Source: a virus. Taken from it: a stretch of DNA of 20,853 bases. Location of the stretch: positions 1 to 20,853 of IMG/VR virus record IMGVR_UViG_3300042691_035511, one strand, 5' to 3'. Under the pieces are notes generated by a model, which worked only from the letters and a program-made list of their open reading frames with translations, did no database searches and was not told where the DNA came from. Below are positions 64-6,325 of the stretch, piece by piece (position 1 is the stretch's first letter; each line of letters begins with the position of its first letter). The position numbers and the translations under genes were made by a program.

Positions 64-2160
64 ATGTCACCTGCTCAAGGCCACAAAGAGCGTGAACGAG
101 ACCAGGCCGCAAAGCGTCGTAAGCGAGCGGAAGAGAAAGATGTACCGATACCTGAGTGCGTCGATTTAGCGACCCGTGCAGAGCTTGAGAAGGATATTTA
201 CGAGTGGCTTTATTTTTTTGGTAATGGTGACTTCGAGTACAAGTTTACCGAAGCTCAAACCGAAATCATAAACGCAATTCTTCGCGCGATTGAATCAGGT
301 GGCGACCAAGCAATTGCAGCTCCGCGCGGTGAAGGAAAAACCTATTTGACGGAATGGGTCACGATGTATGCGGTACTCACCGGCAAGGTGCGTTTTGTGG
401 TCATCTTCTCAACGACTGGCAGTGACGCAGAGGACTGCTTGAAATCGATCAAAACACGCTTTGAAGAGAATGGAATCTTGCGATCCTATTACCCTGAAGT
501 CTGCGAACCGATTGCCGCATTGGAGAGCACGCCACAGAGAGCGCACAGTCAGACCGTGAGCGGTAAGCGTCAGGATACCGGAGCCACGTTTCAGAAAGTG
601 TCTTCAAAGTTCTCTTGGTGTGGCCGCGAAATCGTGTTGCCCAACGTGCCTGGTTCACGATCAGCGAAAACTATCATTGCCACACGCGGTCTCGATTCAG
701 CGGTGCGCGGCATGAAACGCGGCAATGTGCGTCCAGAGCTTGCGATTATCGATGATCCCGATACCGAAGAAACAGCAGCCAGCGAAGAGCAAACTAAAAA
801 GCTGGAACGTAAGATTGATAGAAACATTGCGTACCTTGGCGGGCAGAAACGACGAATAGCCCGCGTGCTGCTCACCACTTTGCAGAACAATGTTTGCGTC
901 TCTGCGATTTACACTGACCCAGAGAAGAAGCCTTCATTCAGGGGCAAGCGTTTCCGCTTTCTTATCGAGCCACCGGAACGCCAGGACCTGTGGGAAGAAT
1001 ATGTTATTCTTCGCCGAAACGACTGGATAAAAAGCACCAACAACGCGCAGGAGCTGTACAAGGCAAACCTTGAGGAAATGCAACGCGGTGCCAAACTTCT
1101 GAACCCAAACCGCAAGGGCGATGAAGGGCAAATTGACGCACTTGAATGCTTTTACTATGAAGTTGCTCGCACCAGCATGGAGGCCGTGCAAACCGAGCTG
1201 CAGAACGACCCACCGCAGGAGTTTGGCGGTACAGATTGCGGGCTTACTGCCAATCGAATTCAAAAGCAGGTATCTGGCTATCCTCGCCTAATGGTCCCGC
1301 CGGAATGCGTCAAAATCACTATGGGTTGCGACATCGGCAAGTACTCGCTGCACTGGGTTGTCAGGGCATGGCGCGCCGATGGCACAGGCTTCGTAATCGA
1401 TAAGGGCGTGCACGATGTGGTTAATACGACTCGCAATGTAGAGGAAGGCGTTGATGTCGCAATTTACAGAGCAATCCTAAGTCATCACGACCAAATGAGA
1501 CAAGTCAGGTATGCAACTGCTGATAAGCAGCTGCGGAAGATCGACATATCACTTTACGATGCTGGCTACAAAACAAATGCCGTTTACCAAGCCTGTCGAG
1601 ACATTGGCAAAGGTGTCTATCCCATCATGGGTGCAGGCAAGTCTAGTGGTTGCGTGAAGGTCTCGTTCAACGATGAACTCAAGGCCTCTCGCACAAAGAA
1701 GCCTGGGGACGGTTGGTTCTTTTCAAAGCAGAAATCATACAACGTCTGGCTGGTAATGGCCGATGCCGACCGTTGGAAAAATTGGGAACACGACCGCTGG
1801 CTTACCACTCTTGGCATGCCTGGTAGTATGCAGCTCTACGGTAGCCCAGCCACCGGAAACGAAGTGCTTTCCATCGACGAGCGCGACCACGTAAAGTACG
1901 CGCACCACATCATTAGCGAAACAGAAGTAGAAGAGTTCCATAACGGCGCATTGCGTCGTAGATGGCGAGTCAGGAACCATAATAACCACTGGCTTGATGC
2001 CAGCTACTATTCCGATGTCGGAGCCTCAATTGTTGGAATCCGCGTTGTGTCCGGCGTGGATTCGGCACCTGTTGAGGTTCCTTCGTCTGTTGCCAGCATG
2101 GTTTCCAGCGATGCAAGGAAGCCTCTCACTCTGGCAGAAATGGCGGCACAAGCACGATGA
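64..2160 (+). CDS. Terminase large subunit (TerL)
   Basis: This is the motor that packages phage DNA into the prohead and cuts the concatemer. The N-terminus is highly charged (about residues 8-26). The ATPase domain shows a Walker A motif APRGEGKT at residues 86-93 and a Walker B LAIIDD at 226-231. The C-terminal nuclease half has three aspartates placed as in RNase H-like terminase nucleases: D423 in GCDIG, D499 in LYDAGY, and D645 in HWLDASYY. At 698 residues it is longer than the usual 450-650. The last residues include PLTLAEMAA (687-695), repeated at the start of the next protein. It overlaps the next gene by ATGA (2157-2160). The place ahead of gpW-like and portal genes is the classical one. 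ATPase and nuclease motifs are seen; the catalytic assignment of the aspartates is inferred. Confidence 0.93.
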   Translation: MSPAQGHKERERDQAAKRRKRAEEKDVPIPECVDLATRAELEKDIYEWLYFFGNGDFEYKFTEAQTEIINAILRAIESGGDQAIAAPRGEGKTYLTEWVTMYAVLTGKVRFVVIFSTTGSDAEDCLKSIKTRFEENGILRSYYPEVCEPIAALESTPQRAHSQTVSGKRQDTGATFQKVSSKFSWCGREIVLPNVPGSRSAKTIIATRGLDSAVRGMKRGNVRPELAIIDDPDTEETAASEEQTKKLERKIDRNIAYLGGQKRRIARVLLTTLQNNVCVSAIYTDPEKKPSFRGKRFRFLIEPPERQDLWEEYVILRRNDWIKSTNNAQELYKANLEEMQRGAKLLNPNRKGDEGQIDALECFYYEVARTSMEAVQTELQNDPPQEFGGTDCGLTANRIQKQVSGYPRLMVPPECVKITMGCDIGKYSLHWVVRAWRADGTGFVIDKGVHDVVNTTRNVEEGVDVAIYRAILSHHDQMRQVRYATADKQLRKIDISLYDAGYKTNAVYQACRDIGKGVYPIMGAGKSSGCVKVSFNDELKASRTKKPGDGWFFSKQKSYNVWLVMADADRWKNWEHDRWLTTLGMPGSMQLYGSPATGNEVLSIDERDHVKYAHHIISETEVEEFHNGALRRRWRVRNHNNHWLDASYYSDVGASIVGIRVVSGVDSAPVEVPSSVASMVSSDARKPLTLAEMAAQAR

Positions 2161-2393
2161 GCGAAGAAAGGAAGCGACCTTTGACACTAGCAGAAATGGC
2201 GGCAATGTCCGCATCTACCGATGGTTGGCAGTGCCCTCGTTGTGGCTGTAAGGATTGGCGAGTGGTGAACAGTCACGAGCGCAACGGAGTGCGAAAACGA
2301 CAGCGAGTTTGCCGGAATTGCGAGTACGATTTGCCCACTATTGAGTTTCCTGTACCGCAAGGATACCGCATAGAAATCGTGAAAGATGAATAA
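2157..2393 (+). CDS. Small zinc-ribbon protein between terminase and portal
   Basis: A 78-residue protein with one four-cysteine zinc ribbon: C26-P-R-C29 and C52-R-N-C55. Between them lies a basic stretch, GVRKRQR, like the arginine-rich loop of the NrdR-type zinc ribbon, and TIE follows the last pair much as in that family. The N-terminus carries RPLTLAEMAA, nearly the same peptide as the terminase tail. It starts inside the terminase stop (ATGA), so translation is probably coupled. The likely role is nucleic-acid or protein binding during packaging or late regulation, but no function is established. It is too short, and lacks the helix-turn-helix, for a typical small terminase. Confidence 0.8.
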   Translation: MSEERKRPLTLAEMAAMSASTDGWQCPRCGCKDWRVVNSHERNGVRKRQRVCRNCEYDLPTIEFPVPQGYRIEIVKDE

Positions 2394-2473: not shown

Positions 2474-2686
2474 ATGAGCACGCCAGAAACTCCTAACGAA
2501 GCGATTGAAGAGGCCATTGTTGGCGGCGTAAAACGTACGCGCGAAGATGCCAACGGTCAGGAAATTGAATCACACTCTATTCGTGACATGATCGCTGGAG
2601 CCAATCACCTGGCTAACACAAATGCAGCTTCTAAAAATCACATGGGCTTGCGATTTACCAAGCTAATTCCACCGGGCGGGGGTTAG
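2474..2686 (+). CDS. gpW-like head-to-tail joining protein
   Basis: A 70-residue protein in the lambda W position, between terminase and portal. Its pattern resembles gpW: a helical start, a lysine/arginine hairpin with DANGQEIES, a second helix (about 35-50), and an ending FTKLIPPGGG like the short flexible gpW tail. In lambda, gpW plugs the portal after packaging and prepares it for gpFII and the tail. The match is by length, layout and position rather than strong sequence identity. The ATG at 2474 has no ribosome site, and the only other in-frame Met is too far inside, so the start is kept. The stop lies two bases before the portal ATG. Confidence 0.65.
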   Translation: MSTPETPNEAIEEAIVGGVKRTREDANGQEIESHSIRDMIAGANHLANTNAASKNHMGLRFTKLIPPGGG

Positions 2687-2688
2687 GC

Positions 2689-4194
2689 ATGATCGCTCTT
2701 GCAAATCGCATTGCTGCAAGCTCTCCCGTCGATGATGCTCTGCTTGGCATCACGCCAGCTCAGCGCAGGGCGATGGTTCGTACCGACATTGTCGAATCTG
2801 CTAATGATCGAACAGCAATCAAAGCCAAGTACGACGCTGCCAGCGATTCCGATGAATTTAAAAACTATTGGGCTAACGCTGATGCTCTCGATGCTGACTC
2901 AGCACATTCCAAGCATGTTCGAGCCAAGCTGGTAAAGCGCTCACGTTACGAAGTTGGCAACAACGGTTTCACAGATGGCATCGTGCAAACGCACGCCAAT
3001 TTCGTGGTTGGACTCGGCTGTAAATTGCGGATGCTGACACAGAACAAAGAGTTTAACGAAACTGTAGAACGCGAGTTTGCAGCATGGTGCAAAGCTACTC
3101 AGTTCCGCCGTAAATTGTGGTGCTTGTGCCACGCAAAAGTTCAAGACGGTGAATCGTTCGGAATTCTAAAGAGCAACCCCAAAGTAAAACATCCCGTTAA
3201 GCTCGACATGGTTGTATTCGAGGCTGAACAATGCCAGAGCCAACACACTCCGTTTAATGTCCCTGGCCATATCGACGGTATTATCTTCGACGAATTCGGC
3301 AACCCTGAATTCTACGAAGTGCTCAAGTATCACCCTGGCAGCCAGTTCAACACGATGTACGAAGCTCCTGAGTTGGTGCCAGCTAAGTTTGTTGTGCATT
3401 GGTTCATGCTTCGCCGGCCTGGTCAGCATCGCGGCATTCCTGAAATGAAGTCAACCATGCAGGTTGGTGCCAGTTCCCGACGCTGGCGCGAGGCTACCGT
3501 AAGTGCTGCTGAGAACATTGCGAGATTCTCCCTGTTTCTGCGCACTGCGTTTCAGCCTGACGAAATGGTGCAGCCAGCGGCAATGTCAACCCTCGAAATT
3601 CAAAAGGGGATGATGACCGCTTTGCCTGCTGGTCAGGATGCGTTTCAACCCAAGGCAGAGCAGCCCAACGCATCCTATGAAACATTTAACGAAGCCCAAA
3701 TTAACGAGCAGGCACGCCCTAAAAACATGCCGCTCAATATCGCTAAGTGTGATTCGAGCCGATACAACTTTGCCTCTGGTCGATTAGACCGCCAAGTGTA
3801 TTTCGGTGGTGTCGATGTCGAACGCCAAGAGTGCGAGGAATGCGTCTTGGCGAAAGTGTTTCCGCTCTGGTACGAGGACGCTGTATTGCGATTCGGCTGG
3901 GATGCTCCGCCTGACGAAACTCCCCCTCATACATTTGACTTTCCCAAACATCCAGAAGCCGATCTGGAAAGTGAAGCTAAGGCCAATGACGTTAAGCTGC
4001 GTAACGGCTCACTGACTTTGTCACAACTCTACGCAAATGACAGCGAAGACTTCTTCGACAAGCTCAAAGAACTGGCTGAGGACTACGGAATTACCGAAGA
4101 AGAAGCCCGTAAGGTGCTGCTCGATACCGTGTTTTATCGTCGCTATCAAGCCTATCCACAGAATCAAAAACAGGAGACAGGCACCGATGCTTAG
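2689..4194 (+). CDS. Portal protein, lambda gpB type
   Basis: The portal forms the ring at one head vertex through which DNA enters and to which the neck binds. At 501 residues it fits the lambda-type family. Family-like features include the early RSRYEVGNNGF segment (about residues 84-94) followed by IVQTHANFVVGLGCKL, the KVQDGESFG block, DMVVFEAEQC, and the FVVHWFMLRRPGQHRGIP block in the middle, typical of the wing and stem region. The C-terminus is acidic and helical and may be a flexible tail. The gene starts two bases after the gpW-like stop, and its last 8 bases overlap the protease-capsid gene. Recognition as a portal is firm from these motifs and the gene order. Confidence 0.92.
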   Translation: MIALANRIAASSPVDDALLGITPAQRRAMVRTDIVESANDRTAIKAKYDAASDSDEFKNYWANADALDADSAHSKHVRAKLVKRSRYEVGNNGFTDGIVQTHANFVVGLGCKLRMLTQNKEFNETVEREFAAWCKATQFRRKLWCLCHAKVQDGESFGILKSNPKVKHPVKLDMVVFEAEQCQSQHTPFNVPGHIDGIIFDEFGNPEFYEVLKYHPGSQFNTMYEAPELVPAKFVVHWFMLRRPGQHRGIPEMKSTMQVGASSRRWREATVSAAENIARFSLFLRTAFQPDEMVQPAAMSTLEIQKGMMTALPAGQDAFQPKAEQPNASYETFNEAQINEQARPKNMPLNIAKCDSSRYNFASGRLDRQVYFGGVDVERQECEECVLAKVFPLWYEDAVLRFGWDAPPDETPPHTFDFPKHPEADLESEAKANDVKLRNGSLTLSQLYANDSEDFFDKLKELAEDYGITEEEARKVLLDTVFYRRYQAYPQNQKQETGTDA

Positions 4195-6325
4195 CGAATT
4201 ACCAATTATTGCCAGTGATGCAAATGTTTACACGTTTGAGGCGATTGAATTTATCGCCACGGCAAGCATTGAAGCTGCTGCGGACGCAAGCGGTACGCCT
4301 AAGTTTTCAACCGTTGCATACACTGGCGGCATCCTGAAAACTAACAAATACCCCAAGGGAATCATTGTTGACCTGCAAGGATTGCAGCCATCGGAACGCA
4401 TCTTGGCGAACCTGAAGCACGACCAAGAACGTTTAGTTGGCCATGTAACAAACACAGCCAACGATGGCAGAAAACTCACGCTCGACGGTCTGCTCTCCTA
4501 TCCAGGCGAGCCACGTAACGAGGTTATCGAAGCCGACAAAAACGGCTTTCCTTGGAACACTTCAATTGAAGCCTTACCTTATGCCGGAAGTGTCGAACAC
4601 ATTGCCGCTGGCAAGATCGTAACAGTGAACGGTCAAACCTTTGTAGGTCCCGTCGATGTTGCGCGAAAAAGTATTTTAGCTGGGGTTGGGTTTGTGCCAC
4701 GTGGTGCAGACCAGAAATCTACAGTAACTATTGCGGCATCTGCCGCCAATATCCGTAAGGAGAATGAACCGATGAACTTTGAACAATGGATCATGGCGAT
4801 GCAGCTTGACCTGACAACGCTAACCGATGCACAAAAAGCCGCCTTGAAAAAGGAATACGACAGCAAGGCGGCACAGCCAGAACCTATCAAGGCTGCCAGT
4901 TTTGATGCTGAAGAAATTGCCGAAATTTATGCCGAACACAATTCCAATCTGGAAGTTGTGTTTGCAAATCGTGAGGAAGGTGTGCCTGCGCCTAAGTTTG
5001 CGGAAATCAAAGCCGCTGGCTTGAAAACCTCGCGTGAAATCAAAAAGAAGGCTGTTTCCGAAAAATGGGCTGGTCCCAAGCTGGAAGTTGAGCTTATCAA
5101 AGCTGCCAGCGCCATTGAGTTGAAGCTCATTGAAGCCGAACGGCCAACTGGTCCTGCTATTCATTCCAGCCGCAAAGACATGAGTGGCGACGTAATCGAA
5201 GCTGCTTTGTGCCAGTCGTTGAACATTCCTGACCATGAAAAAGGATTCAGCGATAAAACTCTGCAAACTTCGCATTCACAGTTCCGTGGTCGAATGGGAT
5301 TGCAACAGGCGATTATCATTGCCGCTGCCCAAAACGGCATGCCATTAGCACCAGGCGACCGAATCACCGACGGTAACTTGCGTGAGGTGTTGCGATTTGC
5401 ATTACCTGTACACGGCACTGCATTCACTGCCGTTTCACTCTCAGGCATATTATCGAATGTGGCCAACAAGGAACTGTTAGCTGGATACGTAACGGAAGAT
5501 CAGACCTGGCGTGAAATTTCGGACATCAAAACGTCGAACAATTTCCACGCCATGACTTCATACCGCATGATCGATGGCATGGAGTACGAAGAATTGTCTC
5601 CGACTGGTCACATGGCGCATGGAAAGGTCGGCGAAGAGTCCTACAGTCGCCAAGTCAAGACCTACGCCAAGATGTTCGCTTTAACCCGCCCTCATATCAT
5701 TAACGATGACCTGAGCGCGTTCGACGATATCCGTATTCGTTTAGGCCGTGGCGCTATCCTGAAATTCCTCAAGATTTTCTGGACTGAATTCTTGGCCGAC
5801 GCTTCCACGTTCTGGACTGCTGCTCGCACCAATTATATCACTGGTGCAACAACTAACCTTGGCACCGATGGCGTTGGTTTGGGCTTGGGTGCAACTGCAT
5901 ACCGTGAACGTAAATCGGCAGCGGTAAACAGCGATGAAACCACTCGCTTCATGCTCGGTGGCGAGCCAGCCAAATTGCTTGTGCCTTCGGCTTTGACCAA
6001 CAATGCTGAAATTCTGTACAAGAATAACAACTTGGCCAGCGTAAAAGCCAGTGATGCAAATATCCATGCCGGTAAGTATCGACCTATCACTGTGACGCAG
6101 TTAGGCGATACCTCCTACACAGGCAGCAGTACGACTGCATGGTATTTGTTCGGCAACAACATGAACCCAATGGCAGTGAGCTTCCTGAACGGAAATCAAA
6201 ACCCAACGGTGGATTCTGCCGATGCCGACTTCGATCAGCTCGGGATTCAGTTCCGAGGTTATCACGACTTCGGCTGTAACAAATCGGAATACATGGCTGG
6301 TATCAAATCCAAGGGTGCCGCCTAG
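4187..6325 (+). CDS. Prohead serine protease fused to major capsid protein
   Basis: A single 712-residue frame encodes both maturation protease and shell protein. Residues 1-190 resemble the HK97/Mu-type prohead protease, with likely catalytic His78 in LKHDQE, Ser126 in WNTSIEA, and a GFVPRGAD segment near 168. Residues about 196-330 are helical and charged, as in a scaffold or delta domain. From about 331 follows the capsid fold, including LREVLRFALPVHGTAF, a long W/F-rich region, and the end FRGYHDFGCNKSEYM. Such protease-capsid fusions are known in phages. The open frame extends back to 4037, but ATG 4187 is preferred: it has AGGAG at 4172-4176 and overlaps the portal end by 8 bases, whereas the earlier part overlaps the portal by 150 bases. 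A second, strongly signalled start lies inside at 4772. Confidence 0.88.
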   Translation: MLSELPIIASDANVYTFEAIEFIATASIEAAADASGTPKFSTVAYTGGILKTNKYPKGIIVDLQGLQPSERILANLKHDQERLVGHVTNTANDGRKLTLDGLLSYPGEPRNEVIEADKNGFPWNTSIEALPYAGSVEHIAAGKIVTVNGQTFVGPVDVARKSILAGVGFVPRGADQKSTVTIAASAANIRKENEPMNFEQWIMAMQLDLTTLTDAQKAALKKEYDSKAAQPEPIKAASFDAEEIAEIYAEHNSNLEVVFANREEGVPAPKFAEIKAAGLKTSREIKKKAVSEKWAGPKLEVELIKAASAIELKLIEAERPTGPAIHSSRKDMSGDVIEAALCQSLNIPDHEKGFSDKTLQTSHSQFRGRMGLQQAIIIAAAQNGMPLAPGDRITDGNLREVLRFALPVHGTAFTAVSLSGILSNVANKELLAGYVTEDQTWREISDIKTSNNFHAMTSYRMIDGMEYEELSPTGHMAHGKVGEESYSRQVKTYAKMFALTRPHIINDDLSAFDDIRIRLGRGAILKFLKIFWTEFLADASTFWTAARTNYITGATTNLGTDGVGLGLGATAYRERKSAAVNSDETTRFMLGGEPAKLLVPSALTNNAEILYKNNNLASVKASDANIHAGKYRPITVTQLGDTSYTGSSTTAWYLFGNNMNPMAVSFLNGNQNPTVDSADADFDQLGIQFRGYHDFGCNKSEYMAGIKSKGAA
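4757..4774 (+). promoter_or_regulatory. Internal ribosome site and start within the protease-capsid gene
   Basis: AAGGAG (4757-4762) precedes an in-frame ATG (4772-4774) by 9 bases, at the exact junction between the protease and the helical scaffold-like region. Starting here would give a 517-residue protein (Met196 of the fusion) with scaffold and capsid parts but no protease. This layout resembles lambda C/Nu3, in which the scaffold is made from an internal start. The site is seen; its use is inferred. Confidence 0.55.

Follow-up and report, generated by a model that had tools for sequence, protein, structure and literature searches.

A zinc-ribbon protein encoded after a phage terminase large subunit mirrors its C-terminal motif and is likely to share its portal tether

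The window analysed here (the whole stretch of DNA, 20,853 nt) is a 20.9-kb piece of a tailed-phage genome in which a GpA-type terminase large subunit (TerL) is followed by a small zinc-ribbon protein (ZR), a small gene in the lambda W position, a lambda-family portal and a fused protease-capsid (Table 1). The last of these corresponds to a single long frame at 4037-6325, with matches to head maturation protease and major capsid protein; the portal gene ends inside this overlapping frame. The locus raises the question of why TerL should end, and the adjoining ZR begin, with the same short peptide. By sequence comparison we show that both copies exist, co-vary genome by genome, are kept as peptide and follow the identity of the portal. 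Taken as a whole, these observations are likely best explained by ZR copying the portal tether of TerL and docking at the same site, binding itself being inferred.

Table 1. Coordinates of the features discussed in the text, as positions of the window
Feature	Position	Strand	Basis
TerL, 698 aa, GpA-type terminase large subunit	64..2160	+	Pfam PF20454, E 2e-18
TerL linker, residues about 661-687, predicted disordered	2044..2124	+	pLDDT < 50 at 664-687
TerL tail motif PLTLAEMAA, residues 687-695 of 698	2122..2148	+	frame 1
ATGA overlap, TerL stop / ZR start	2157..2160	+	sequence
ZR, 78 aa, NrdR-like zinc-ribbon protein	2157..2393	+	PF22811, E 3.2e-5
ZR N-terminal motif copy PLTLAEMAA, residues 8-16	2178..2204	+	frame 3; predicted helix 11-20
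Zinc ribbon of ZR, residues 25-63	2229..2345	+	Pfam span; family alignment
Small gene, lambda W position, between ZR and portal	2474..2686	+	gene order as in lambda and relatives
Portal protein, lambda family, proposed docking partner	2689..4194	+	PF05136, E 1.3e-43

The first-pass annotation of the window had reported PLTLAEMAA at TerL residues 687-695 and ZR residues 8-16, read in different frames and with distinct codons for LTL (CTC ACT CTG in TerL, TTG ACA CTA in ZR), and both statements held. What it omitted is that both copies have the same proline codon (CCT) and the same following stretch of 15 nt (GCAGAAATGGCGGCA), the codons for AEMAA being identical; the two 27-nt copies, which lie 56 nt apart, share 85% DNA identity, and the likeness extends slightly past the nine residues (SSDARKPLTLAEMAAQA vs SEERKRPLTLAEMAAMS). 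A degenerate pattern for the motif matched the window only twice, at the TerL tail and the ZR N-terminus, and did not match shuffled window sequence in any of 100 trials. Searching viral contigs for exact PLTLAEMA returned 26 stretches, none of them at a TerL end or a ZR start, which makes the exact string uninformative; the motif itself is degenerate.

More than 100 related loci were gathered in total. Single-protein searches with ZR, TerL and the capsid yielded no useful relatives: one locus retrieved with ZR (L002) proved unrelated, and TerL matches in phages and plasmids were too distant, at about 25% identity. A pattern for a conserved TerL stretch (RPxL..DDPxTxE) recovered about 120 homologues, whose tails often carry related short terminal motifs, and a search with a ZR alignment gave 46 loci. 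A further search with a portal alignment alone provided 26 distinct new tails, 24 of them accompanied by ZR; the alignment was built from motif-bearing genomes and consequently samples their clade. Most loci are metagenomic fragments in which upstream sequence is mostly missing and the small terminase subunit (TerS) is rarely present, and ZR starts were picked by proximity to the TerL stop. The -4 offset between TerL and ZR seen in the window is common among relatives.

Within the window's portal clade the TerL tail bears a variable short motif, the same variant of which is found at the N-terminus of the adjoining ZR, and nearly all genomes of the clade have the motif in both proteins. Among the loci of the ZR search, side-by-side reading of the two peptides revealed mirroring specific to each genome (TerL/ZR): RMSLRQYA/RMSLREYA in L200, KISLAELQ/KISLAALQ in L202, RRSLADMA/RRSLQDMA in L188, QPMSLAEMA/QPKSLQEMA in L168, RPTLDQL/RPTLGEL in L174 and, in L175, YRFGR/YRFKR, an unlike peptide that is mirrored nonetheless. 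Most of the 24 pairs of the portal-only set are visibly mirrored as well, including MTLAEMAAA/MTLAEMAAQ (L225), SRPSIAQVAGR/SRPTMAAVAGR (L228) and RSLAEAAAE/RTLQEAADE (L235), with L270 as a clear exception. Much of the wider family, which has other portals, encodes a ZR without the motif even where TerL has one, so docking by ZR is not universal.

The likeness between the two peptides is not due to chance. For 59 dereplicated pairs that had not been chosen by motif, own pairs exceeded swapped pairs (20.0 vs 15.5; 0/5000 permutations), and controls with the C-terminus of ZR, or with TerL segments other than the tail, gave an excess of only 0.3 to 0.9. Taken singly, 10/59 genomes reached p<0.01 when compared with residue shuffles, the number expected being 0.6, with the qualification that the alignments of two of them (L097 and L176) overlap the motif only partly. 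With later loci added, the difference was 24.2 vs 17.6 over 66 dereplicated genomes; it amounted to 31.5 vs 23.4 in the 31 genomes of the window's portal clade and to 31.3 vs 24.7 in the 24 genomes of the out-of-sample portal-only set (0/10,000 permutations in each case). We relied on these unselected sets, as the 18-genome "motif-bearing" discovery set was chosen by eye and its significance is circular. Both the permutation and the Mantel-type tests assume exchangeable genomes, and hence overstate certainty for related ones.

At the DNA level, codon sharing between the two copies at identical residues does not exceed what codon usage would lead one to expect (34/118, with 47.6 expected, in the discovery set; 48/140, with 52.1 expected, in the new portal-only set), which indicates that the motif is kept by selection on the peptide and not on the DNA. 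The first-pass annotation had read the repeat as an old duplication held by selection on the peptide. The second part is supported, by codon use and by genome-by-genome co-variation; the first is not established, no DNA-level signal being left in the family and the window alone keeping its 15-nt identity. A recent DNA duplication across the family was rejected on codon use. The below-expectation sharing in the discovery set might conceivably mean that direct DNA repeats lying close together are avoided; the shortfall in the new set is only slight.

The identity of the tail motif follows that of the portal. In every genome whose portal is at least 43% identical to that of the window, the tail bears the motif and ZR, where it could be extracted, mirrors it, despite TerL cores that are only 24 to 47% identical. 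Conversely, four loci with related TerL cores and other portals (L151, L062, L142 and L069) have tails without the motif; in L151, where the TerL core is 47% identical to that of the window and the portal 21%, it is absent from both TerL and ZR. The association of the tail with the portal given the TerL core was 0.295 (0/2000), compared with 0.074 for the tail with the TerL core given the portal, and regression of the tail assigned weights of 0.16 to the TerL core, 0.32 to the portal and -0.02 to the capsid. When the W-position gene, which intervenes between ZR and portal, was included as a linkage control, it received 0.04, with 0.10 for the TerL core and 0.25 (0/1000) for the portal. In the TerL segment that directly precedes the tail, similarity goes with the TerL core instead (0.78 vs 0.05 for the portal). 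Simple linkage therefore fails as an explanation, since the W-position gene adds nothing and the upstream segment follows the core. The ZR N-terminus behaves like the tail, with 0.38 (0/1000) for the portal and -0.03 for its own ribbon. No portal segment stood out as co-varying with the tail, and there was no clear peak.

These associations agree with what is known of lambda, in which the C-terminus of TerL (gpA) has been described as a "portal binding tether", with TerS bound to the N-terminal part and the portal to the C-terminus (PMC9026076), and in which a mutation in the connector suppresses a gpA binding mutant (PMC2366019). The TerL of the window matches PHROG 38 and 15 (terminase large subunit), and its nuclease match spans residues 394-660. 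The predicted structure is ordered to about residue 660 and continues as a disordered linker capped by a lone tip helix at 690-697. The tail thus resembles the lambda tether in lying at the extreme C-terminus, past the nuclease domain, and, in the model, in placing a short docking element after a flexible link; in the family, specificity follows the portal, by sequence association only. The two systems are also alike in that the element is the C-terminal tip of a GpA-type TerL, and in the order TerL, W-position gene and lambda-family portal. Tails of lambda (KKTLADYARAL), N15 (NKTLADYARAL), Ec705R4 (NKLSLEEMARML) and ARM81ld (RTMAELAQQL) resemble the window motif by eye only, without a supporting statistic, the cores being TLADYA in lambda and N15 and LSLEEMA in Ec705R4; five other lambda-related TerLs (PaD14L, RcKvothe, FoX2, Turba and WOVitA2) showed no similar motif. 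That the TerL tail of the window binds the portal is inferred from these relatives, such binding being known for lambda. Unlike the window, lambda and the lambda-type phages that were checked carry the motif in TerL alone, and their next gene has no copy of it. Among the gathered loci, L044, L051, L053, L077, L113, L130, L138 and L146 have ISREEMAAKRAELLAKMGR-like TerL tails resembling the window motif, and no zinc-ribbon gene was found adjoining TerL in any of the eight.

The ZR of the window scores 24.2 bits against PF22811, below the curated cut-off of 27.2, and 39/40 ZRs of the family match this model at E<=0.01. Its predicted structure comprises one short helix over the motif and a zinc ribbon, with NrdR chains as the best structural matches. 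In the family alignment C26, C29, C52, C55 and R53 are invariant, with R48 and R50 conserved at >=90%. NrdR ribbons pair, grip the DNA backbone through an RRRR arginine cluster and kink the DNA (PMC9110341). ZR shares with NrdR the fold, four cysteines in two CxxC pairs and the arginine cluster before the second CxxC. It differs from NrdR in its size (78 aa), in its putative N-terminal docking motif, in being encoded in a packaging operon and in lacking an ATP-cone, for which no match was found. That ZR binds DNA is only an inference, by analogy with NrdR.

A role similar to that of TerS and IHF in lambda packaging, as a DNA-binding partner shaping DNA at packaging initiation, is conceivable. 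ZR is nevertheless unlike TerS in that it has no helix-turn-helix and no TerL-binding domain, follows TerL and copies the portal tether, and its fold and position rule it out as TerS itself. In two loci (L159 and L198), small ORFs just upstream of TerL have a common GAPxxxxGxxxLxxYxAWL segment; they could be TerS and are better candidates for it than ZR, although for the protein of L159 no PHROG family matched convincingly.

We consider it likely, in the absence of binding data, that TerL and ZR have a portal tether in common. According to this reading, the end peptide of TerL would be the tip of a flexible, lambda-type portal-binding tether, and its copy at the ZR N-terminus would dock on the same site of the portal ring, bringing a probable DNA-binding ribbon to the portal. 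ZR would then be a DNA-binding packaging accessory, an inference only, whose most likely role would be to keep DNA in place, or to bend it, at the mouth of the portal. ZR may share docking sites with TerL or take them over, a proposal made because the twelve-fold portal has more sites than the five-fold motor uses: packaging assemblies of HK97 contain at most five TerL per dodecameric portal (PMC9410871), so that spare docking sites may exist. It may occupy these spare sites or, once packaging ends, take the place of TerL; any timing or competition is speculative, and we consider a specific role in hand-off or competition less likely than not. A bolder reading, to which we would give slightly less than even credence, is that ZR mimics the portal plug of the motor, competing with TerL or filling neighbouring sites on the twelve-fold portal, and thereby controls motor loading or the motor-to-neck hand-off after packaging; plug and receptor would co-evolve and constitute a readable code of portal specificity.

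The first-pass annotation had suggested a docking tag by which both proteins bind the same partner, for example portal or small terminase, or compete for it. The shared tag is supported by comparison, without binding of either peptide having been established. The portal is the favoured partner, given that tail and ZR N-terminus track it and that lambda TerL provides a precedent, and the choice between competition and side-by-side docking is not settled. It had also proposed asking whether both proteins keep the motif, which they do in nearly all genomes of the window's portal clade, some of the wider family having a ZR without it, and whether other proteins bear it. No third protein was found to do so in the 14 loci tested, where TerL and ZR alone had their genome's own motif on the coding strand.

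Several alternatives to a common portal tether can be weighed. The two copies might bind each other, ZR being a terminase subunit that holds the TerL tail and the portal not being the common partner. Like-with-like segments would co-vary too, and the genes are usually adjacent, with stop and start often overlapping. We nevertheless consider homotypic pairing unlikely: both peptides track the portal, the motifs are short and leave little room for a coiled coil, and the motif occurs in lambda-type TerLs and in groups such as L113 with no ZR after them. Nor does a receptor other than the portal, with both peptides sitting on TerS or on the TerL body, appear probable. TerS had been named as a candidate at the outset, and missing upstream sequence prevented its sampling; against it, in lambda the portal takes the C-terminus of TerL and TerS the N-terminal part (PMC9026076). 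As for the TerL body, core similarity fails to predict the tail after the portal is taken into account, and it fails to predict the ZR N-terminus.

Two further explanations are much weaker. The peptide could be a functionless leftover, copied by recent local duplication or gene conversion at the TerL/ZR junction, as the 15-nt identical stretch in the window, with its copies 56 nt apart, might suggest. This is very unlikely and is refuted for the family, where codon sharing is at or below expectation and many diverged lineages repeat the own pairing, which is seen as well in L168, whose ZR lies 307 nt downstream. Alternatively, ZR might be an NrdR-like or Ogr-like transcription regulator resembling the tail for an unrelated reason. 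Its ribbon fold does best match NrdR, and Ogr/Delta matched 2/40 family members. The genome-specific match between ZR N-terminus and TerL tail, the tracking of the portal by that N-terminus, which the ribbon does not explain, and a gene position inside the packaging operon render this reading highly improbable.

In DNA packaging it is still open how TerL holds on to the portal, how a motor of five-fold symmetry makes use of a ring of twelve-fold symmetry, and by what means the motor comes off. A second, co-varying copy of the plug offers many matched peptide-portal pairs for mapping the docking site, and the finding points to an unrecognised packaging factor. A limited search of open-licence literature found no report of a tether shared between TerL and an accessory protein.

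Three observations on individual loci and hosts complete the picture. In L168, ZR lies at 2916-3113, 307 nt past TerL and without overlap, and its N-terminus still mirrors the tail. In L153, TerL has KVKKVSYL at its end and is followed by a cysteine-rich protein beginning with MKKAQKKVSVKK, perhaps a mirrored pair built on a different motif. Related ribbons found in genomes belong mostly to Planctomycetes bins.
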